This document shows positions 20,318-49,477 of a stretch of 64,000 nucleotides of DNA, piece after piece. The notes under the pieces were generated by a model. The model ran no database searches. It saw nothing but the letters and a program-made list of their open reading frames with translations, and was not told where the DNA came from. Every line of letters starts with the position of its first letter. Position 1 is the stretch's first letter. A program made the translations under genes and the position numbers. This DNA is from a virus, in IMG/VR virus record IMGVR_UViG_3300032087_003621, positions 82,378 through 146,377 of that record; one strand, 5' to 3'.

Positions 20318-21682
20318 ATGGAAATTTCTTACGATAGACTCGTTGAGAAGTGGGCTCCAGTTCTGAATGAAGAGTCAGCGGGTGAGATCAAAGATTCTCA
20401 TCGTCGTGCTGTAACTGCTGCTATCTTGGAAAACCAAGAGAAGGCGTTCATGGAACAAGCTCAACTTAACGAAGTAAACACAAACACTTCTGTAACCCAA
20501 GCTGCTGGTTCAAGTGGTGCAAACTGGGACCCCATCCTTATCGCCCTCGTTCGTCGTGCTATGCCTAACTTGATGGCATATGACGTTTGTGGCGTTCAGC
20601 CTATGACTGGTCCTACTGGTCTTATCTTCGCTATGAAGTCACGTTTTAAGACTGGACCTAATGCTGGTGCTGGTGCTGTTGATACAGAAGCTCTGTTCAA
20701 CGAAGCACCAACTCCATATTCTGGTGACTCTTCAACTGACTTGGCTGACACTCGTGGTCCTTCAGGTCTTAAAGGTGTAACTAATACTAACCCAGGCGCT
20801 GGTGACTCTTCTATTGCTGACGAAACAACTACTGTTGATATCGGCCGTGGTATGTCAACTGCTACTGCTGAAGCTCTTGGTACTACTGGTGGTAACTCTT
20901 TCCATGAAATGGGTTTCACCATCGAGAAGGCAACGGTTACTGCGGTATCACGTGCTTTGAAAGCAGAATATACGCTTGAACTCGCTCAAGACCTCAAGGC
21001 TATTCATGGTCTTGACGCTGAGACAGAACTTGCTAACATTCTGTCTACGGAAATTCTTGCGGAAATCAACCGTGAAGTTATCCGTACTATCAACTCTCAA
21101 GCTAAGATTGGTGCTCTTCAATCTAACATGACTACTAAGGGTATCTTCGACTTGTCTACGGACGCTGATGGTCGTTGGTCAGTTGAGAAGTTCAAGGGTA
21201 TGTTGGTACAGATCGAGCGTGAGTGTAACGTAATTGCTAAGGACACTCGTCGTGGTAAGGGTAACGTAGTAATCTGTTCTTCAGATGTTGCTACTGCTCT
21301 CGCTGCTGCTGGTATGCTTGATTACTCACCTGCTCTTTCTACTAACCTTCAAGTAGATGACACAGGCAACACGTTTGCTGGTGTATTGAATGGTCGTACA
21401 CGTGTTTACATCGACCCATATGCTGACACAGACTACGTGACTGTAGGTTATAAGGGTACGAATCCTTACGACTCAGGCGTTTTCTACTGCCCATACGTTC
21501 CTCTCCAGATGGTACGTGCGGTTGGTGAGAATGACTTCCAACCACGTATCGGGTTCAAGACTCGTTACGGCATGATCGCTAACCCATATGCTGGTACAGG
21601 TTCACCTCAGAGTGACTTGGCTAACACAGTACGTGCTAACCAGTACTATCGTATTTTCCGCGTGGATAACATCCTCGACTAA
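20318..21682 (+). CDS. 23: Major capsid protein gp23
   Basis: A 454-aa HK97-fold capsid protein. Signature segments are LIALVRRAMPNLMAYDVCGVQPMTG near residue 70, the Glu/Lys helix with LELAQDLKAIHGLD, and the C-terminal IGFKTRYGMIANPY. gp21 cleavage would remove about the first 60 residues. Compared with T4 gp23 (521 aa) it is shorter, as in marine T4-like phages. Codon use here is richer in GCT/GGT/CGT than in most neighbours, fitting very high expression. A strong terminator follows. Confidence 0.97.
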   Translation: MEISYDRLVEKWAPVLNEESAGEIKDSHRRAVTAAILENQEKAFMEQAQLNEVNTNTSVTQAAGSSGANWDPILIALVRRAMPNLMAYDVCGVQPMTGPTGLIFAMKSRFKTGPNAGAGAVDTEALFNEAPTPYSGDSSTDLADTRGPSGLKGVTNTNPGAGDSSIADETTTVDIGRGMSTATAEALGTTGGNSFHEMGFTIEKATVTAVSRALKAEYTLELAQDLKAIHGLDAETELANILSTEILAEINREVIRTINSQAKIGALQSNMTTKGIFDLSTDADGRWSVEKFKGMLVQIERECNVIAKDTRRGKGNVVICSSDVATALAAAGMLDYSPALSTNLQVDDTGNTFAGVLNGRTRVYIDPYADTDYVTVGYKGTNPYDSGVFYCPYVPLQMVRAVGENDFQPRIGFKTRYGMIANPYAGTGSPQSDLANTVRANQYYRIFRVDNILD

Positions 21683-21709
21683 TAAAAATAACGATAGTTA
21701 TAAAAATTT

Positions 21710-21734
21710 GGGGCACTTCGGTGCCCCTTTTTTT
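21710..21734 (+). terminator. Strong terminator after gp23
   Basis: A perfect 7-bp stem GGGGCAC / GTGCCCC with a TTCG tetraloop followed by seven Ts. It ends the head operon and also shields it from the convergent minus-strand gene whose stop lies at its edge. Confidence 0.93.
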
Positions 21735-22722
21735 ATGCAGCTTGATCGATTATTTCCATAGTCTCATCATCAAGACCTATAGAGTTTAACAACCCATTAT
21801 TATCATTTAATGCTCGTCTAGTAATTAAGTATGCAATACTTGCACGTGCATTGCCAGCCAAACGTCCCTTAATAAGATTAGTTTGTTTTGGATTGGTACG
21901 TTTGAAATTTACCAAACTTTCTACAATCTCATCAATACTGTAAGAATGATCGACATCTTCGTTCTTCATTAAAAGATATGCAAGACCTGTAAGTAAATAA
22001 CCGGAAACGGTTGGTTCTCTATCATAAACTTTTTGAATGATACGAGAAGACTCAATGAAGTACTCTTCGGGTATACCGTCCTTTCGGAAATAATTGGTCT
22101 TGACTTCAACAAAACCACCCAAAGACTTTCCAATTGGGTTTAGTCCCTCTACGTCAAGTTCACAGTTTTTGAAAACGTTCAAAAGTTTTAGAGCATCCGG
22201 ATCACCAAAGACAACCTCAGACTTAAAAATTTCTTCTGCTTTCATAGACTCCTGATCAGCGTTACGTGACTTGAAGTAACGCGCTTCTTCTTTTTGGCAA
22301 TCTAGGTCAGTCATAAACTGTTTGTGTACCAACTGTGAAGTCTTGATGTGAGTCAAACCACACAGACCCGCCATGATAATACGGCGGAGACCGTCCCAAC
22401 AAAACTTCTTTCCGGACGGCCGGATTGCGATGTCCACTACTCCAGCTGAGTATGGATCAAACCCGTTCATCTTTTGAAGTTTGTTGATGAGTTTCTTCAA
22501 ACGGACAATACGTTGATACGTCATGTCAACCCAAATCTCATCGATTGCAACCACACCCACTTCTTTAGGGTCATAAACTGCATTTGAGATCATACCAGCT
22601 AGGGTCTTGGTCTTGAAGTTTTCGATACGGAGAATCGCATCGATAATGTCTTGGATACGGACTGTACCCTTTAGGTTAGCGAGCTCACCTGAGACTTCAC
22701 TATGTTTAGTGCTCTTACGCAT
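21733..22722 (-). CDS. ParB-like nuclease-domain protein
   Basis: A 329-aa protein on the minus strand. Residues ~55-120 show the ParB/Srx-like pattern: an IDEIWVDMTYQR strand-helix with the conserved YQR, a following helix with NGFDP, then IRPSGKKFCWDGLRR, where the DG-RR box matches the DGxHR element. The rest is helical and not recognised. ParB-like folds in phages include DNA-binding, nuclease and NTP-binding proteins. It has an aaggag ribosome site and a palindrome 30 bases upstream. It forms an island with the DUF4338-like gene. Role unknown. Confidence 0.62.
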   Translation of the reverse strand: MRKSTKHSEVSGELANLKGTVRIQDIIDAILRIENFKTKTLAGMISNAVYDPKEVGVVAIDEIWVDMTYQRIVRLKKLINKLQKMNGFDPYSAGVVDIAIRPSGKKFCWDGLRRIIMAGLCGLTHIKTSQLVHKQFMTDLDCQKEEARYFKSRNADQESMKAEEIFKSEVVFGDPDALKLLNVFKNCELDVEGLNPIGKSLGGFVEVKTNYFRKDGIPEEYFIESSRIIQKVYDREPTVSGYLLTGLAYLLMKNEDVDHSYSIDEIVESLVNFKRTNPKQTNLIKGRLAGNARASIAYLITRRALNDNNGLLNSIGLDDETMEIIDQAA

Positions 22723-22749
22723 ATAATACTCCTTGTATTATTTTTAGTA

Positions 22750-22768
22750 GAGATACAACATGTATCTC
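22750..22768. promoter_or_regulatory. Palindrome in the leader of the ParB-like gene
   Basis: GAGATACA-aca-TGTATCTC is a perfect 8-bp inverted repeat located between the two minus-strand genes. It sits just downstream of a TATACT-like -10 on the minus strand. It could be an operator bound by the ParB-like protein (autoregulation) or an mRNA hairpin. Confidence 0.5.
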
Positions 22769-22782
22769 ATATTAGTATATAG

Positions 22783-23913
22783 TCATCTTATGATGTCTAT
22801 GCCTTCTGCGTTAGTATTCCAAGTCTCCACAACGGAACGCAGTCTACCGTCTGACTTCAGAGACTCATAACGTTTGCCCGCCTTGTTACGCCACCAGTCA
22901 ATGACTGACTCAAGTTCAAAGCGATCAAAGTTATCCTTCTTAACCAATGTGTCTGTCTCCATGTTGAGATACTGTGGCACATTGTCATACCCGTAGGTTG
23001 AATAAAAAGAACGCTTCTTTTCAGTCAATCCTTTGGCATCAGAGAAGGTCTGACAGAACTTCGCATAGGCAGTTTCATCATATTGTTTGAGAGAGGCTTT
23101 GATGATACCTACCATCTTGGTCTGGGTCTTTAACTTGCGAGAGGATGCATCAGCAGGTACCAAGGATTCACCATCATTTCGTTTTCTAAACCATTCGTTT
23201 AACTTACGAAAATTATCATCATTTATCAATGGCGCGAAGTTTGAGTCTGTCAGACCGTTAAACCTTAGTAGTGGTTTCATACCATCATACTGCGAGGCAG
23301 CTTTGGTAGAACCATACAAAGAAGTTGTTTCGAACATACAAATGTTCGCATCGTATTTTTTATTCAGTGCTTCACGTACAGTGTGAGAACAACAAATCGC
23401 TGCCAGTAATTTACCACCAAGATAGTTGAACCCAAACGGTTGTGTAGGTACAATGTTGAAACCCATAATAACAGATTTGTTAAATCGTTTCATCACATCA
23501 GGATTCATTGTATCAAGAGGACCGCCCAACCATTCGTTGCGTGGACGAGAGTTTATTGTTGGTGAACCGAAACGAATCATACCGATAATAGTGTCAGTAT
23601 TTTTTTCAGTTACTATCCATAACATTTGTTTGCCTGGGATACTTGCCTCTACAGGAGCCGAGGTAGTAATCTCCATGTAACGCATAAATTTTTCTTGTGA
23701 ACATTCATAAAATCCAATGTTCATATCGTTCGGGTGAATATTGAAGTTACTGAAAAGGTCACTCTCAGGGCCCATGCCTGGAAGTGAATGTGGAAAAGAT
23801 TCCATGCGTTCCATTTTAACAGTACGCATATAATCATCAATACGTTCGAAGTTACTAAAGAACTCTTCGAACACATTTGCTGCGTAGTAAGCATCGGATT
23901 TGGATAAAATCAT
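22783..23913 (-). CDS. DUF4338 / DruA-like protein
   Basis: A 376-aa minus-strand protein. A GNAT-like strand region near residue 105 (WIVTEKNTDTIIGMIRFGSP) is followed by FNIVPTQPFGFNYLGGKLLA and CMFETTSLYGSTK, then SQYDGMKPLLRFNGLTDS. This series resembles the DUF4338 core known from the Druantia protein DruA and from phage homologues (NIVPxQPFG, LGGKLLA, ETTSLYG). The activity of that family is unclear; a nucleic-acid-modifying role has been considered. It is transcribed first in the island from a consensus promoter at 23941-23969. Confidence 0.6.
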   Translation of the reverse strand: MILSKSDAYYAANVFEEFFSNFERIDDYMRTVKMERMESFPHSLPGMGPESDLFSNFNIHPNDMNIGFYECSQEKFMRYMEITTSAPVEASIPGKQMLWIVTEKNTDTIIGMIRFGSPTINSRPRNEWLGGPLDTMNPDVMKRFNKSVIMGFNIVPTQPFGFNYLGGKLLAAICCSHTVREALNKKYDANICMFETTSLYGSTKAASQYDGMKPLLRFNGLTDSNFAPLINDDNFRKLNEWFRKRNDGESLVPADASSRKLKTQTKMVGIIKASLKQYDETAYAKFCQTFSDAKGLTEKKRSFYSTYGYDNVPQYLNMETDTLVKKDNFDRFELESVIDWWRNKAGKRYESLKSDGRLRSVVETWNTNAEGIDIIR

Positions 23914-23940
23914 AAAAATAAATTCTCAAACAATAGGAAT

Positions 23941-23969
23941 AGTATATAGCATTTTTACCAGTGTGTCAA
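23941..23969 (-). promoter_or_regulatory. Sigma70-type promoter for the minus-strand island
   Basis: On the minus strand a perfect TTGACA (-35, bases 23964-23969) is separated by 17 bases from TATACT (-10, bases 23941-23946). It lies 28 bases before the DUF4338-like ATG. It is back to back with a plus-strand late box starting at 23972. Confidence 0.8.
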
Positions 23970-23971
23970 GG

Positions 23972-23979
23972 TATAAATA
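23972..23979 (+). promoter_or_regulatory. Late promoter TATAAATA before the gp3-like gene
   Basis: A perfect late box 27 bases before the GTG start at 24007, two bases away from the -35 of the divergent island promoter. Confidence 0.72.
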
Positions 23980-24006
23980 GAAGAAACGATTAAAGGTTTA
24001 CATACC

Positions 24007-24504
24007 GTGGCAGAACTGACAAGCAACATTAACTATCTTCAACCTACTGGATTTGCGGTCTCTATCTCTAAGGAGAACTATCCTAATATCCAGTACTTTG
24101 CACAGTCCGTATCACACCCTAGCGTCTCTGTCTCGGAAGTAGAGGCACCATACCAGAGAAGGAATGTGCCCATCATTGGGGATAAAATATTGTTTGATGA
24201 AGTGCAGTTCACTTTCCTAGTTGATGAAGATATGAAATCATACGAAGAAATGTTTGCTTGGTTGAATCGTATTGTCAATGATGAATATAAAACCTCAGCT
24301 GGAACTCTTTTATCTGGTATTGGTTCTGAAGCTGATATTACAGTAACCATTCTTTCTAGTCACAACAATGCAAAGAAACAAATTCGTTATGTCAATGCGT
24401 TTCCTGTCAACGTAACAGGTATCGAATTTGCTGCAACAAACACAGAAATTTCACCCCTAACATTTAGTGCTGGTTTTAGGTACTCCTATTTCGAATTACT
24501 ATAA
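24007..24504 (+). CDS. 3: Tail completion / sheath stabiliser protein, gp3-like
   Basis: A 165-aa protein with a tail-tube-like beta fold. It has LQPTGFAVSI at the start, FLVDEDMKSYEEMFAWL in the middle, then VTILSSHNN and a final GIEFAATNTEISPLTFSAGF strand pair. Cyanophage proteins annotated gp3 share these segments and the same place between gp23 and UvsY. T4 gp3 terminates the tail tube. GTG start, with aaagg upstream and a late promoter, agrees with a virion role. It is also a distant paralogue of gp19. Confidence 0.72.
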   Translation: MAELTSNINYLQPTGFAVSISKENYPNIQYFAQSVSHPSVSVSEVEAPYQRRNVPIIGDKILFDEVQFTFLVDEDMKSYEEMFAWLNRIVNDEYKTSAGTLLSGIGSEADITVTILSSHNNAKKQIRYVNAFPVNVTGIEFAATNTEISPLTFSAGFRYSYFELL

Positions 24505-24505
24505 C

Positions 24506-24534
24506 TTGAATCTCCTAGTTAAGTGTGGTATAAT
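24506..24534 (+). promoter_or_regulatory. Sigma70-type promoter for uvsY-uvsW
   Basis: TTGAAT (24506-24511), 17-base spacer, TATAAT (24529-24534). It begins directly after the gp3-like stop and separates the early recombination genes from the late gp3 transcript. Confidence 0.8.
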
Positions 24535-24562
24535 ACCAGAAAATTACTAGGAAGTCAACACA

Positions 24563-25006
24563 ATGGATTTAAAAGATATCTTGTCTATGTGGGAAGAGGA
24601 TAGTAAAATTCCTTCAGCACACCTAGATGAAACATCTCGTAACACTCCCGCACTACATTCTAAGTATTTGTCTATTCTAGCTGATGCTAAGTTAAAGATG
24701 AAAGATGCGGAGTTCAAACAGAAAATCCTTCTGAAAGATAAGTGGTTATATTATAATGGAAAGTTAGACCAAAAGTCAATAGAAGAAAAAGGTTGGGACC
24801 CAGACCCCTTCAATGGTCTAAAGATTCTGAAAGGTGAAATGGAACACTACTATGAGAGTGACCCTGAACTTCAACAATCCGAAGCAAAAATTCAATACAT
24901 TAAAACTGTGATAGATACACTATCTGAAATTATTAACAATCTTAACTGGCGACATCAGACCATTAAGAATATGATTGACTATAAGAAGTTTGAAGCTGGT
25001 TTCTAA
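24563..25006 (+). CDS. uvsY: Recombination mediator UvsY
   Basis: A 147-aa helical, charged protein in the UvsY position before UvsW. UvsY helps load UvsX recombinase onto ssDNA coated with gp32. The N-terminal LKDILSMWEEDSKI and the central KDKWLYYNGKL segments are typical. Length is the same as T4 UvsY (137 aa). A ctaggaag ribosome site lies upstream. The stop is followed after one base by the uvsW start codon. Confidence 0.88.
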   Translation: MDLKDILSMWEEDSKIPSAHLDETSRNTPALHSKYLSILADAKLKMKDAEFKQKILLKDKWLYYNGKLDQKSIEEKGWDPDPFNGLKILKGEMEHYYESDPELQQSEAKIQYIKTVIDTLSEIINNLNWRHQTIKNMIDYKKFEAGF

Positions 25007-25007
25007 T

Positions 25008-26480
25008 GTGATTAAGTTGAAGTTAAAAAATCATGCGATGTTACAGTTAGTGGAGTGTGAAACTTCACTGGCTCAGGAGTTGTATGATTATTTTTCTTTT
25101 GACGTGCCAGGCGCAAAATACATGCCCGCATTTAAATCACGAAGGTGGGATGGTAAGATTCATCTGTTGAATCGTATGAACGGCGAAATCAATGCCGGTC
25201 TTCTATCAGAAATAGAAAAGTTTGTCTATCGAAAAGGCGTACCGTTGAAATATGAAGAAACGCCTTATGGATGGCCTGGCACTAAAAACAAACTAAACCA
25301 TATGGACCTTATGCGATGGATTGAAAAAATCAATCTGCCGTTTATGCCTCGTGACTATCAGTATGATGCCTTCATACATGCATTAGAAAATAAAAGAAGT
25401 GTTCTGGTGTCTCCTACAGGTTCCGGTAAATCTTTTATCATCTATCTTCTTCTTAGATGGTATCTTGACCGATATAAAGATAAAAAAGTTTTGTTGATTG
25501 TTCCAACTACTAGTCTGGTGGAACAGATGTATTCCGACTTTAATAGTTATAACTTTGATGCCGAAAATAATTGTCATCTCATTTATTCCGGTAAAGATAA
25601 AGACACCGAAAAATCTGTAATGATTAGTACGTGGCAGTCAATTCATAAACTAGGTCCACGTTGGTTCGAAAAGTTCGGTATGGTGATTGGAGATGAGTGT
25701 CACGGGTTTAAAGCCAAATCTCTTTCCTCTATTATGAACAAAGCAGTTAACGCTGAGTATCGATTTGGCACAACTGGAACTTTAGACGGTACTCAAACAA
25801 ACAAGATGGTACTTGAAGGTTTATTTGGGCCTGTACACAAAGTGACCACTACAGCAAAACTTCAAGAACAAAAAACTCTAGCAAAGTTAGATATAGATAT
25901 ACTGTTACTTAAATACGATAAAGAAATTAGAGAAAAACTTTCTAACATTACCTATCAAGAGGAAATTGATTTCTTAGTTACATGTGAAGCTAGAAACCGT
26001 TTTCTTCGCAATCTTGCTTGTAGTCTTGACGGTAACACACTAGTTTTATTTAATTTAGTAGAGAAACATGGTAAAGTTCTAAGAGAGTTGATTGAGAATA
26101 AATTAGATGATGGACGAAGATTATTTTACGTGTCAGGCGAAACGAAAACAAACGACAGAGAGGCCGTTAGGAAAATTGTTGAAAAACAAACTAACTCAAT
26201 TGTTCTTGCATCCTTGGGAACCTTCAGTACTGGTATCAACATTCGTAATATCCATAACATTATATTCGCTAGTCCTAGTAAATCACAAATACGAGTCTTA
26301 CAATCGATTGGAAGAGGTTTGCGAGTCTCCGATGACGGAAGAACAACTAAACTATACGATGTTGCGGATGACTTGCGTAGCAGAGGAAAACCAAACTTCA
26401 CCTTGAGACACAGCGCTGAAAGAGTTAAGATATATAATTCTGAAGAGTTTCCTTATAAGATGCATGAAATAAAAATCTGA
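25008..26480 (+). CDS. uvsW: Superfamily 2 helicase UvsW
   Basis: A 490-aa SF2 DNA/RNA helicase that unwinds branched DNA and R-loops and helps the switch to recombination-dependent replication. Motifs visible: PTGSGKS (Walker A), GDECHGF (DExH form), FGTTGTLDG (motif III region) and QSIGRGLR (motif VI). The GTG at 25008, one base after the uvsY stop, is preferred to the TTG at 24975 inside uvsY because the family starts with a short beta strand here. Length agrees with T4 UvsW (503 aa). Confidence 0.92.
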   Translation: MIKLKLKNHAMLQLVECETSLAQELYDYFSFDVPGAKYMPAFKSRRWDGKIHLLNRMNGEINAGLLSEIEKFVYRKGVPLKYEETPYGWPGTKNKLNHMDLMRWIEKINLPFMPRDYQYDAFIHALENKRSVLVSPTGSGKSFIIYLLLRWYLDRYKDKKVLLIVPTTSLVEQMYSDFNSYNFDAENNCHLIYSGKDKDTEKSVMISTWQSIHKLGPRWFEKFGMVIGDECHGFKAKSLSSIMNKAVNAEYRFGTTGTLDGTQTNKMVLEGLFGPVHKVTTTAKLQEQKTLAKLDIDILLLKYDKEIREKLSNITYQEEIDFLVTCEARNRFLRNLACSLDGNTLVLFNLVEKHGKVLRELIENKLDDGRRLFYVSGETKTNDREAVRKIVEKQTNSIVLASLGTFSTGINIRNIHNIIFASPSKSQIRVLQSIGRGLRVSDDGRTTKLYDVADDLRSRGKPNFTLRHSAERVKIYNSEEFPYKMHEIKI

Positions 26481-26929
26481 TGAAAAAAAGAAATGTAAAA
26501 CAATTTATTTTAACAAACGGACAAGAAATTGTTTGTGATGTAATTGAATGGGCTGAAGAAAATTTTTCTGAAATTGTTGTTCGTAATTGTATGGAAATTG
26601 TTTGGATGCACAGTAATGAACAAAGAATATATATGTTCAAGCCTTGGATGCATTATCAAGAACTTACTGAAGATTTAATTATAATTAATTCAGACCACAT
26701 TATCTCAACTGCTGAACCTACAGAATATTTGGTATACCAATACGATGTTGCTGTTAAAGATATGAATGAGTCTGGTGATGACCGACGTGAAGAATACTCT
26801 TATGAGAGAAAAAGAAAATATCAAAAACTTGCTGATTACCTTTTAGAACTAACAAAAAAAGATATGGAAGGAAGTTCAGATTCCGATAAACCCAGTAATA
26901 TCATTCCATTTCCACCCTTAATTCATTAG
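26480..26929 (+). CDS. Conserved hypothetical protein with Sm-like look (149 aa)
   Basis: It starts on the last base of uvsW (tgATGA-type overlap). The first ~75 residues form a beta pattern (QFILTNGQEIVCDVIEW, then IVVRNCMEIVWM) reminiscent of the small Sm/LSm barrel. The tail is charged and ends in a Pro-rich IIPFPPLIH. It lies between UvsW and gp55, where marine T4-like phages often carry an unnamed gene. Function unknown; RNA binding is only a guess from the fold impression. Confidence 0.7.
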   Translation: MKKRNVKQFILTNGQEIVCDVIEWAEENFSEIVVRNCMEIVWMHSNEQRIYMFKPWMHYQELTEDLIIINSDHIISTAEPTEYLVYQYDVAVKDMNESGDDRREEYSYERKRKYQKLADYLLELTKKDMEGSSDSDKPSNIIPFPPLIH

Positions 26930-26956
26930 GTATATACACCTAATCATTAGGTATAT
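26924..26956. repeat. Two direct repeats CATTAGGTATAT, 21 bases apart, upstream of gp55
   Basis: Identical 12-mers start at 26924 and 26945, exactly two helical turns apart. Between them TTAGGT-atatac-ACCTAA also forms an inverted repeat. Tandem sites on one DNA face are typical of cooperative protein binding. They lie about 120 bases before the late sigma gene. Confidence 0.6.
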
Positions 26957-27009
26957 TATCCCTGGCGTGTTAAGCTTTAGGGTAACATATTTTTTTTAAA
27001 AAGTCAAGC

Positions 27010-31872: not shown

Positions 31873-31948
31873 GCGGGATTAGCTCAGTTGGTAGAGCGCA
31901 ACCTTGCCAAGGTTGAGGTCGTGAGTTCGAACCTCGCATCCCGCTCCA
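31873..31948 (+). tRNA. tRNA-Gly (anticodon GCC)
   Basis: A complete cloverleaf. Acceptor GCGGGAT/ATCCCGC, D arm with AGCTCAGTTGGTAGAGC, anticodon stem-loop around TTGCCAA (GCC, Gly), T arm with GTTCGAA, discriminator T and an encoded CCA end. It lies between the small gene and gp44 and probably belongs to the same transcript. It would read GGC and GGT codons, common in virion genes here. Confidence 0.97.
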
Positions 31949-37467: not shown

Positions 37468-39897
37468 ATGAATTTTTATACATCAGTCTCAAAATACGGC
37501 AACAACCTTCTCTATCGTGGTTTCAAAAACGGTCAGCGGGTTCAAGAAAAAATAAAATTTAAACCTGTACTCTTCGTACAATCCCCCAAAGCAACCGACA
37601 AATACAAAACCCTAGACGGACATAAAGTTTCTCCGATTGAATTCGATTCGATGCAGGATGCACGTGAATTCGAACAACGGTATAAGAATGTACCGAACTT
37701 CGCCGTCTATGGTCAGACAAACTTCGTCACTCAGTTTATCGCAAACAAATTCCCGAACGAAGTTAAGTTCGATAGGGATATGGTAAACGTTTGTACAATT
37801 GATATCGAGGTGGCATCAGACGAGGGATTCCCAGCTCCCGATGAGGCAAAACATCCTGTCATTTCTATCACAGTCAAAAACAATCAGGACAGTACCTATT
37901 ATGTTTTTGGATTGTATGACTATGATGAAACTTTATCTGAAAAAAATGTTAAATATTTTAAGTGTACTGATGAACCGGCACTTCTACAATCCTTCTTAGG
38001 TTGGTGGAAAGGTAACTGCCCTGATATCGTAACGGGTTGGAACACCAAGTTGTTTGATATACCATATCTGGTCAATCGAATGATGAATCTGTTCACCACA
38101 AACGAATATCTAGAAATGTCGCCGTGGAAGTTGGTACGCAAAAGAATGATTCCGACACTGGGTGGTCGAGAACAAATCTCGTATGACCTTGATGGTATCG
38201 TTCAGCTAGACTACTTCGACCTGTTTAAAAAATTCACGTGGAATACATATGGACAACAAGAATCTTATAAACTTGACCACATCGCAAATGTCGTACTGGG
38301 TGAACGAAAACTTTCTTATGATGAGTATGGTTCTCTGCACTCATTATATAAACACGATTTTCAGAAGTTTATCGACTATAACATAAAAGACGTTGAACTG
38401 GTTGACCGACTCGAAGAGAAGTTGGGTATCATCACTCTGGTGATGACGATGGCATATGGCGCGAAAACAAATCTTGGTGATGCGTTGGGTACCACAGCTA
38501 TCTGGGATGCAATCATCTATAACGAGTTGATTGCTGAGGGTAAGGTCATTCCACCCAAACCACCCGTTGCAGAAGTCAATAATAAAATTGCTGGTGGTTT
38601 TGTGAAAGACCCCGAAGTGGGTGCTCACGATTGGGTCTGTTCGTTTGACCTGAACTCTCTGTATCCTAACATTATTGTTCAATACAATATGTCCCCCGAA
38701 ACTCTTAGTGACGATGGTGTGTGTGAGGCTGCGAACGGAACACGATACTCTAATAAGTTTGAAGGTATTGTACCCAAAGTTATTCGTAAGTTTTATGACC
38801 GTCGAGTTGGTATTAAGAAAGAGATGTTGGAGGCGAAACAAGAATACGAAAAGAATCCTTCCAAGAAACTTGCGATAAAGATTGATACTCTTGACACTGA
38901 ACAGACGGGTATCAAGATTCTAATGAACTCTCTCTATGGTGCTCTCGCAAACAAATGGTTTCGTTACTTTGACCATCGACTTGCTGAGGGTGTCACATTG
39001 TCCGGCCAGCGTGCGATACGTTGCGCTGAGAAGGCGGTAAACGATGAGATGCAGGAATTACTAGGGACAAAAGATGATTATGTGATTGCGATTGATACTG
39101 ACTCTGTTTATATCAATATGTCTCAGTTGGTGAAACAACACAACCCAGCGAACCCCGTTAACTTCCTCGACAAGGTGTGCGAACATTTTGAAAACGTAAT
39201 TGAGAAGGCGTATGACAACCTCGCAAAAGAAACCAATGCGTATGTCAATCGTATGGTGATGAAGCGTGAGGTGATTGCTGACCGTGGTATCTGGATGGCA
39301 AAGAAACGATACATTCTCAACGTACACGATAGTGAGGGTGTTCGGTTTGCGGAACCCAAACTCAAGATGATGGGTATCGAGGCCGTCAAGTCATCGACGC
39401 CCCAGATTGTTCGTGAACGTTTCAAGGATTTGTTCTCCATCATCGTAACTGGGACCGAAGAAGAAACTCAAGAATTTATTCGAAAGTTTCGCCAAGAGTT
39501 TTCATCACTCCCACCCGAAGATGTGGCCTTTCCACGTGGTGTAAGTGAGTTGCGTAAGTGGGAAGACAAGACTACCATCTATGGTAAGGGTACACCCATT
39601 CACGTTCGGGGTGCGCTTCTATATAATCATTACATTCGGTTCGAGGGTCTTCAGAACAAATACGAAAAGATTCAGGACGGGGAGAAAATCAAATTCATTT
39701 ATCTGCGAGTCCCCAACAAAATCAAAGAAAACATTATTTCCTTCTCTGGTCAATTTCCTAAAGAACTGGGGTTGACATCATCCGTTGATTATGATAAGAT
39801 GTTTGCTAAAACATTCCTTGACCCACTGGAACCGATTCTTTCGGCTGTGGGTTGGGAAGCAGAACCAAAGGCAACACTTGAGGATTTCTTTGGATAA
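37468..39897 (+). CDS. 43: Family B DNA polymerase gp43
   Basis: An 809-aa replicative polymerase with 3'-5' exonuclease. Exo motifs: [12 protein letters not shown] near residue 112 and [14 protein letters not shown] near 190. Polymerase motif [13 protein letters not shown] near 393. Motif [15 protein letters not shown] near 487. Motif [11 protein letters not shown] near 535. The KKRY motif follows. It is shorter than T4 gp43 (898 aa) but of cyanophage size. The C-terminal ending EDFFG is the usual clamp-binding tail. Its stop overlaps the next ATG (taATG). Confidence 0.97.
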
Positions 39898-49398: not shown

Positions 49399-49477
49399 CG
49401 GGGTGTAGCTCAGTCTGGTAGAGCACTCGCTTTGGGAGCGAGGGGTTTCGGGGGTTCGAATCCCTCCACCCCGACCA
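49399..49477 (+). tRNA. tRNA-Pro (anticodon TGG)
   Basis: A full cloverleaf: acceptor CGGGGTG/CACCCCG, D arm with AGCTCAGTCTGGTAGAGC, anticodon stem CTCGC/GCGAG around TTTGGGA (TGG, Pro), T arm with GTTCGAAT and encoded CCA. It reads CCA and other CCN codons, frequent in virion genes here. Confidence 0.97.

Follow-up and report, generated by a model that had tools for sequence, protein, structure and literature searches.

Here we describe a two-gene island in 64,000 nucleotides of DNA from a marine bacteriophage (the window), which covers positions 82378-146377 of the 146,377-base record IMGVR_UViG_3300032087_003621. Between the major capsid gene gp23 and a tail-tube gene, two open reading frames follow each other on the minus strand, 23913..22783 (376 amino acids) and then 22722..21733 (329 amino acids). 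The first belongs to the DruA/DUF4338 family and has a GNAT-type fold, the second has a ParB/sulfiredoxin fold, the two are linked in other contigs, the partner of the first gene is exchanged among related marine T4-like phages, and the promoter in front of the pair is conserved in position. We favour, as a tentative reading that stops a little short of being probable, a self-contained phage module for the acyl modification of DNA, equipped with an exchangeable ParB or nuclease partner and resembling a restriction-modification system. The preliminary description of this DNA had offered a DNA-modification module as one option, and the GNAT fold, the ParB and nuclease partners and the linkage now make it the preferred one. 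The features that carry the argument are the following.

22783..23913, minus strand: DruA/DUF4338-family GNAT-type acyltransferase gene, first gene of the cassette (open reading frame; PF14236, E 3e-11; phrog_19197, E 1e-162; structural model)

23407..23427, minus strand: codons for the conserved N-Y/A-L-G-G-K-L of the acyltransferase, residues 163-169 (N163 and L165-L169 invariant in the alignment)

21733..22722, minus strand: ParB/sulfiredoxin-superfamily gene, second and exchangeable gene of the cassette (open reading frame; structural model; homologues)

22381..22395, minus strand: ParB box D110-G-L-R-R114, the motif with which the ParB fold binds nucleotides (no variation at G111 and R114 in the alignments)

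23941..23969, minus strand: sigma-70-like cassette promoter TTGACA-N17-TATACT (only exact match in the window; position conserved in relatives)

The assignment of one of the two genes to DUF4338, made in the preliminary description, holds: the 376-residue protein matches PF14236 with 43.4 bits, above the curated cut-off of 27, and its relative in phage HTVC008M reaches 40.9 bits. It also matches the PADLOC DruA models and, over its full length, phrog_19197, a PHROG with no assigned function. Its AlphaFold model (mean pLDDT 75) returns a Foldseek list made up almost wholly of GNAT and other acyl-CoA transferases, none of them at an E of 0.001 or below. When the model was re-aligned to 998 PDB chains, 57 of them reached a Z of at least 8, and the top chain was Mom of phage Mu (8bv8; Z 9.1, rmsd 4.1, 170 residues). 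Of the viral models, the best match annotated as Mom or as a DNA-modifying enzyme is Mom of Salmonella phage FSL SP-031, in eighth place behind four uncharacterised proteins, a putative GNAT, an amidoligase entry and one entry without a name. Faunusvirus, Yasminevirus and Dasosvirus supply the best viral structural matches in BFVD, uncharacterised proteins that align with nearly the whole model (A0A3G4ZXG3, A0A5K0UAJ3, A0A3G4ZRA1). A PDB sequence search with the profile of the DruA-like protein gave no useful match. The conserved N-Y/A-L-G-G-K-L lies at a strand-helix turn and is presumably the site at which GNAT enzymes bind the pyrophosphate of CoA. DUF4338 is described as a GNAT domain in passages of PMC10853773, and the homologue in phage S-SCSM2R was named 'methylcarbamoylase mom' by its depositor. 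On the strength of the model, we consider with good confidence that the first protein is a GNAT acyltransferase; we favour, more cautiously, the view that it would acylate DNA in the manner of Mom.

The 329-residue protein has no Pfam match, hence no ParB, helix-turn-helix, GmrSD_N or HNH domain there, and a PDB sequence search with its profile gave nothing useful. That it is ParB-like, as first described, is borne out by its model (mean pLDDT 79), in which residues 53-158 take up the fold of ParB, Noc, KorB, sulfiredoxin and a serine kinase, with a Z of 6.8 over 86 residues at best, and by the arginine of the ParB box, R114, which all 11 of the 11 aligned proteins have. Residues 160-329 are helical and resemble BrxU weakly (Z 5.0 and 4.6), a level that lies within noise for helical regions and on which we do not rely. 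In phage DSL-LC02, a distant relative carries the annotation of a ParB/RepB/Spo0J partition protein. Both genes of the cassette are under purifying selection: among the pairs for which the synonymous rate (dS) could be computed, the ratio of the nonsynonymous rate to it (dN/dS) is 0.05-0.11 for the DruA-like gene (three of four comparisons) and 0.07-0.08 for the ParB gene (two of four), the remaining three comparisons being saturated.

Of the 31 phage records that contain the acyltransferase, 25 are named for Synechococcus, three for Pelagibacter, two as marine viruses and one as a cyanophage, and the gene is mostly annotated there as 'putative cytoplasmic protein' or hypothetical. IMG/VR yielded 104 relatives, 80 of which were kept; the IMG/VR loci are metagenomic and related to one another. 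Several phages carry the gene among replication genes: it lies between gp43 and UvsX in HTVC008M, between the clamp-loader gene (gp44) and gp62-RegA in DSL-LC02, and next to clamp-loader and RegA genes in S-SCSM2R. The window contains gp43 (37468-39894), uvsX and gp41, and no DruA-like gene separates them. A second DUF4338 gene of HTVC008M (locus L106; genome W01, KC465899.1, 86386-86916; 65.6 bits to PF14236) lies apart from the copy linked to gp43. In the distant pelagiphage Mosig, a DUF4338 gene is found with other neighbours (L091, 884-3849): it lies 3' of two 2OG-Fe(II)/phytanoyl-CoA dioxygenase genes and a peptide deformylase gene, with an SMC-like gene first, a neighbourhood that may possibly be another modification cluster.

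To describe the gene next to the acyltransferase, we compared 79 of 86 loci, leaving aside one on the same contig as another (L004, with L039), two near-copies of L008 (L009 and L010) and the four annotated phages (L089-L092). Thirteen of the 79 end too early to show the adjoining gene, which leaves 66 informative loci. A candidate partner of the ParB superfamily adjoins the acyltransferase in 47 of them, 45 downstream and two upstream, and falls into seven clusters, whose names are labels of this analysis and a few of whose members, such as that of L014, were assigned from genes truncated at the end of a contig. These are c28, the type of the window (6 loci), c12 (15), c40 (6, including the two upstream), c71 (2), c60 (3), c31 (9) and c41 (6). 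Cluster c31 combines GmrSD_N with HNH (seen in L035 and L036) and matches PADLOC NsnA and REase_II; c41 is related to it (hhalign 97.7%) and has an HNH-like C-terminus that remains below curated cut-offs. Clusters c12, c40 and c71 are mutually related, the latter two chiefly through c12. Pfam ParB_N touches two of 14 members of this group (best E 0.008), and in PDB a ParB-domain structure comes up with the profile of the group at E 0.008, closely preceded by an entry other than ParB (E 0.004), a ranking that makes the assignment to ParB only moderate. Clusters c60 and c28 share a weak PHROG match. The other 19 informative loci have no partner of the ParB superfamily, and four of them carry instead a small protein, c42, which is probably a PD-(D/E)xK nuclease given its conserved D..ECK motif and a weak REase_II match. 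PDB sequence searches gave no useful match for one GmrSD_N-HNH partner and for the PD-(D/E)xK-like partner, and weak HNH and weak ParB matches for two other partner profiles. Nuclease domains are seen in some partners only (c31, the HNH-like c41, and c42). The putative modification gene and its partner are linked.

This linkage also appears when the search starts from the partner. The preliminary description had left it to be looked for in other phages, and it is conserved: in the contigs found with the ParB protein, a DruA-like gene lies directly upstream in 10 of the 10 that have upstream DNA, at a gap of 63-127 bases, three of these ten being near-identical to the window and one further contig beginning inside the ParB gene (the alignment of the second such search included relatives originally found through the acyltransferase). 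Starting from the c12 partner, a DruA-like gene is found upstream in 25 of 27 informative loci (30 found, three of them cut), and starting from c31 the acyltransferase is present in three of three (four found, one cut). L124 and L125 have c12-type ParB-like genes with no DruA-like neighbour and in a different phage context. Between the acyltransferase and c40, L011 (1550-2050) and L012 (4222-4722) have a small gene, c44, which matches YunG weakly and overlaps the acyltransferase stop by four bases; in L033 and L034, the c44-c40 pair lies upstream of the acyltransferase.

Both the partner and the whole pair appear to have moved. Compared with L012, which carries c44 and c40 between the two blocks, the window is homologous over 20487-21735 and again over 22805-26994, and since homology resumes on both sides, it is essentially the ParB gene alone that has been replaced. 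Compared with L004, in which the pair sits behind gp43 in the replication region, homology extends over 21724-23914 only, which is exactly the two-gene unit. The 120 loci with a full-length DruA-like protein reduce to 54 at 97% identity, five of them with the downstream side cut, and a tree of these 54 acyltransferases, quickly made and with several long branches, requires at least 21 changes of partner label and four of site label. Unlike partners are swapped behind a near-identical enzyme, from which we infer that enzyme and partner need not match in sequence specificity. Such swapping is the pattern to be expected if the partner merely read the presence or absence of a bulky mark.

The promoter proposed in the preliminary description is present, of early type and conserved in position; promoter-like sites as a class, however, are not enriched around it (19 found against 21.7 expected in 19-27 kb), so it is the conservation of its position that makes it credible. 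Allowing one mismatch, TTGACA-N17-TATACT has three matches in the window against 0.59 expected. All 34 distinct upstream regions of island loci between gp23 and the tail-tube gene have a best promoter-like match of at least 10/12, some 50-57 bases before the start, and at positions -60..-46 alone a score of at least 10 occurs in 36 of 58 acyltransferase upstreams versus 41 of 479 upstreams of other open reading frames. Strong promoters go with partners: they are found in 32 of 33 representatives with a partner versus two of 16 without (Fisher p 2.5e-9), and partnerless copies after gp43 score 9 or less. This count includes c42, which was scored as a partner once it had been recognised, so that two rows counted as 'none' became 'partner'; in the earlier count, the loci with a partner had 30 strong promoters and one weak, and those without had four strong and 14 weak. 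The association is weakened by the shared descent of the loci.

How the cassette would work can be sketched as follows. The first gene would encode a GNAT-type acyltransferase, of DUF4338/DruA family and with a fold like that of Mu Mom, that acylates a base in the phage DNA; it would be made early from a promoter of the host sigma-70 type, the solo copies being expressed within the replication operon. The slot of the second gene would hold a DNA-acting, nucleotide-binding partner of the ParB/sulfiredoxin fold, often fused to HNH in relatives and in some loci replaced by the small PD-(D/E)xK-like protein. The mark would protect the phage DNA, the partner would attack or process DNA that lacks (or bears) it, and the pair would serve a virulent phage as a restriction-modification unit against host or rival DNA. 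We favour a DNA-marking enzyme with a DNA-acting partner because of the company of replication genes and early promoters and because the partners rotate among ParB-fold and nuclease proteins; restriction-modification or guided modification is our best reading of the working mode. That DNA is the substrate, what the chemistry of the mark is and that the partner cuts are parts of this model to be read conditionally, as is the idea that the ParB protein of the window, in which no HNH is found, plays the same role as its nuclease-bearing counterparts. ParB-fold proteins act as NTPases and DNases in conflict systems according to passages of PMC5512222. A base hydroxymethylated beforehand through a thymidylate-synthase route is unlikely, since the record has no gene of that family (PF00303), and hydroxymethyl-pyrimidine chemistry was set aside on this ground.

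Known systems share parts of this design. Mom of phage Mu and its family (PF25680) have the GNAT fold and supply, respectively, the best-ranked solved structure and the best-ranked match with a DNA-modifying annotation among viral models, and Mom genes too lie beside or near the DNA polymerase gene in some phages. In Microbacterium phage Appa (L108, 1969-3121), a ParB-like gene overlaps a true Mom-family gene, which is an independent pairing of a GNAT with ParB. The DruA-like proteins differ in that there is no sequence or profile match to Mom in either direction, in being longer, with helical regions on both sides while the LGGKL turn is kept, and in being encoded by an early-type gene, whereas mom of Mu is late (PMC4461284). 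Fusions of Mom with a restriction endonuclease (REase) in jumbo phages, predicted in passages of PMC7824862 to combine modification and restriction, likewise couple a phage GNAT modification enzyme to a nuclease; here, by contrast, there are two genes, the enzyme is DUF4338 and not Mom, and the partner belongs mainly to the ParB superfamily and is exchanged among close relatives. The cassette is in this sense a variant of the predicted phage Mom-nuclease systems. With type IV restriction by GmrSD and BrxU it shares, in several relatives, partners made of GmrSD_N (itself a ParB fold) and HNH, and in the window the weak likeness of the C-terminal half of the ParB protein to BrxU (Z 5.0), although that protein has no HNH or GmrSD_N match. 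DpdB with DpdA, and DndB, also place a ParB-superfamily protein alongside a DNA-modifying enzyme (passages of PMC12839542 and PMC10853773), but the enzyme of the cassette is a GNAT and neither TGT nor phosphorothioation machinery.

Several results weigh against the modification cassette. The Z of Mom is tied, within 1 Z, with many other GNATs among the 998 chains. The window protein does not match the Mom family PF25680, its sole Pfam match at E up to 1 being DruA; two relatives do not match PF25680 at E up to 10; and hhalign against one or nine Mom proteins fails, with a probability of 0.5%. These Pfam and hhalign comparisons found no direct sequence homology between the DruA-like protein and Mom. 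Pfam, NCBIfam and PADLOC show no nuclease domain in the window ParB, and 15 of the 66 informative loci have neither kind of partner, most of them being promoterless copies in replication operons. In a test of independent pairs on the association of promoter and partner, about two of five pairs carried information; both agreed with the expectation, and significance was not reached in the sign test. A ParB-like neighbour was seen in one of eight inspected Mom loci, that of Appa, and adjacency of Mom and ParB as a general rule was discarded on this count; in Psychrobacter phage Y8A the Mom and ParB genes are far apart (passages of PMC10434257).

The main rival retains the DNA mark and gives the partner another role: the same DNA acyltransferase would be assisted by ParB as a nucleoside triphosphate-driven helper or regulator, which loads the enzyme, activates the target or limits modification, instead of acting as a nuclease. 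We think this unlikely, yet it deserves serious attention. The ParB fold, and not HNH, is the common denominator of most partners, and the version of the window is itself a ParB without HNH; a bacterial ParB-acetyltransferase fusion binds GTP (passages of PMC12704722), and DpdB, a ParB-like ATPase (passages of PMC12839542), offers an analogy through the roles proposed for DpdB with DpdA and DndB with Dnd. Against a helper speak the loci with a PD-(D/E)xK-like protein and no ParB, the solo acyltransferases that persist without a partner, and the swapping of unlike partner families between closely related enzymes, which an intimate cofactor should resist. We give still less weight to the idea that the GNAT acts as a toxin or in early host takeover by acylating a protein or tRNA of the host, with ParB as passenger or co-player. 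Most GNATs do acylate proteins, tRNA or small molecules, and such enzymes are in the Foldseek list; the promoter is of early type; and a phage GNAT that acetylates RNA polymerase is cited in passages of PMC7824862. The position in replication clusters of several phages, the nuclease and ParB partners and the place of Mom at the head of the structural ranking all run counter to it.

Defence against other phages or superinfection exclusion, of Druantia type or otherwise based on DruA, seems improbable to us. The Pfam and PADLOC matches of the first protein to DruA, the cassette's own early-type promoter and the GmrSD- and NsnA-like partners of relatives would suit it. DruE is the only component common to the Druantia types according to passages of PMC13192584; we chose the MZB zinc module PF09369 as the marker of DruE-type helicases and found no match to it in the 146-kb record, which is possibly a fragment, with a search that detects eight of 14 controls. 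No further Dru gene adjoins the cassette, its setting is that of a phage and its partner is a ParB, and solo copies are found within replication operons. Membership in Druantia, the defence system named in the preliminary description, was accordingly rejected on the flanks (gp23 and the tail-tube gene) and the missing PF09369, DUF4338 being in itself a GNAT domain. That the second protein is a ParB of partition or replicon maintenance next to an unrelated gene we regard as scarcely credible: the annotation of the distant DSL-LC02 relative points that way, against which stand the lack of any Pfam ParB or helix-turn-helix match, the T4-like setting between capsid and tail genes, with DruA-like, gp23 and tail-tube neighbours in place of a ParA partner, and the partners of other families that occupy the same slot.

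The remaining features of the locus concern the flanks of the cassette and its signals.

20318..21682, plus strand: gp23, the major capsid gene on one side of the insertion site (PF07068, E 5e-147)

21710..21727, both strands: terminator hairpin common to gp23 (plus) and the cassette (minus) (fold z -3.7 on each strand)

22750..22768, minus strand: intercistronic hairpin GAGATACA-TGT-TGTATCTC (8-bp stem; the spacer folds with z -2.7)

23972..23979, plus strand: TATAAATA, T4-type late-promoter motif for the divergent tail-tube gene, directly adjoining the promoter of the cassette (octamer count)

24007..24504, plus strand: gp19-like tail-tube gene, the other flank (PF06841, 7e-07; phrog_45, 6e-35)

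The gene at 24007 had been called gp3-like, which these matches to tail-tube families refute. The island had also been presented as the only multi-gene unit on the minus strand, and so it is within the window for open reading frames of at least 100 amino acids, but other minus-strand runs exist elsewhere in the 146-kb record. The octamer TATAAATA, which we take to correspond to the T4 late-promoter consensus, occurs 11 times in the window against 3.26 expected; being over-represented and nearly always on the plus strand (10 of 11), it looks like the late-promoter motif of this phage, and the 11 sites are likely late promoters spread over the window. The spacer between the cassette and the tail-tube gene would then form a divergent switch between early and late expression. 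The palindrome noticed earlier in the island is real and takes the form of the intercistronic hairpin, 22768..22750. Related hairpins, carrying either a broken inner pair or a wobble pair, are confined to L004 and L005. Its use as a parS-like operator was rejected, as the ParB-type spacers of L027, L084, L102 and L104 have no counterpart, and because it is missing from these remaining spacers it looks like an RNA hairpin, to which we assign no use. The window also has two phage tRNA genes, Gly(GCC) at 31873-31948 and Pro(TGG) at 49399-49477.

In a bolder and more doubtful form of the modification reading, virulent marine T4-like phages would carry widespread mobile 'mark-and-cut' cassettes, in which a DUF4338 enzyme places a new acyl mark on a base and swapped ParB-fold NTPase-nucleases all read this single mark. 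The cassette would then be a fast-evolving weapon, similar to restriction-modification and aimed at host or rival DNA, with a changing reader and a constant mark. If the swapping of partners behind a constant modification enzyme is what it seems to be, nucleases that respond to a single mark pass between phages, a design that we did not find described in the literature searched: no paper on the acyltransferase-ParB pair was found in the one literature library covered, and the main text of the MetaGPA paper (PMC8670742) has nothing on Mom, DUF4338 or ParB. Since cultured cyanophages and a pelagiphage, HTVC008M, S-SSM7 and S-SM2 among them, carry the gene, the chemistry of the mark could be read directly from virion DNA. 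Our analysis thus offers a testable function for a family annotated mostly as hypothetical in 31 phage records, and suggests that DUF4338/DruA proteins, known from Druantia, may more widely be DNA-marking acyltransferases.

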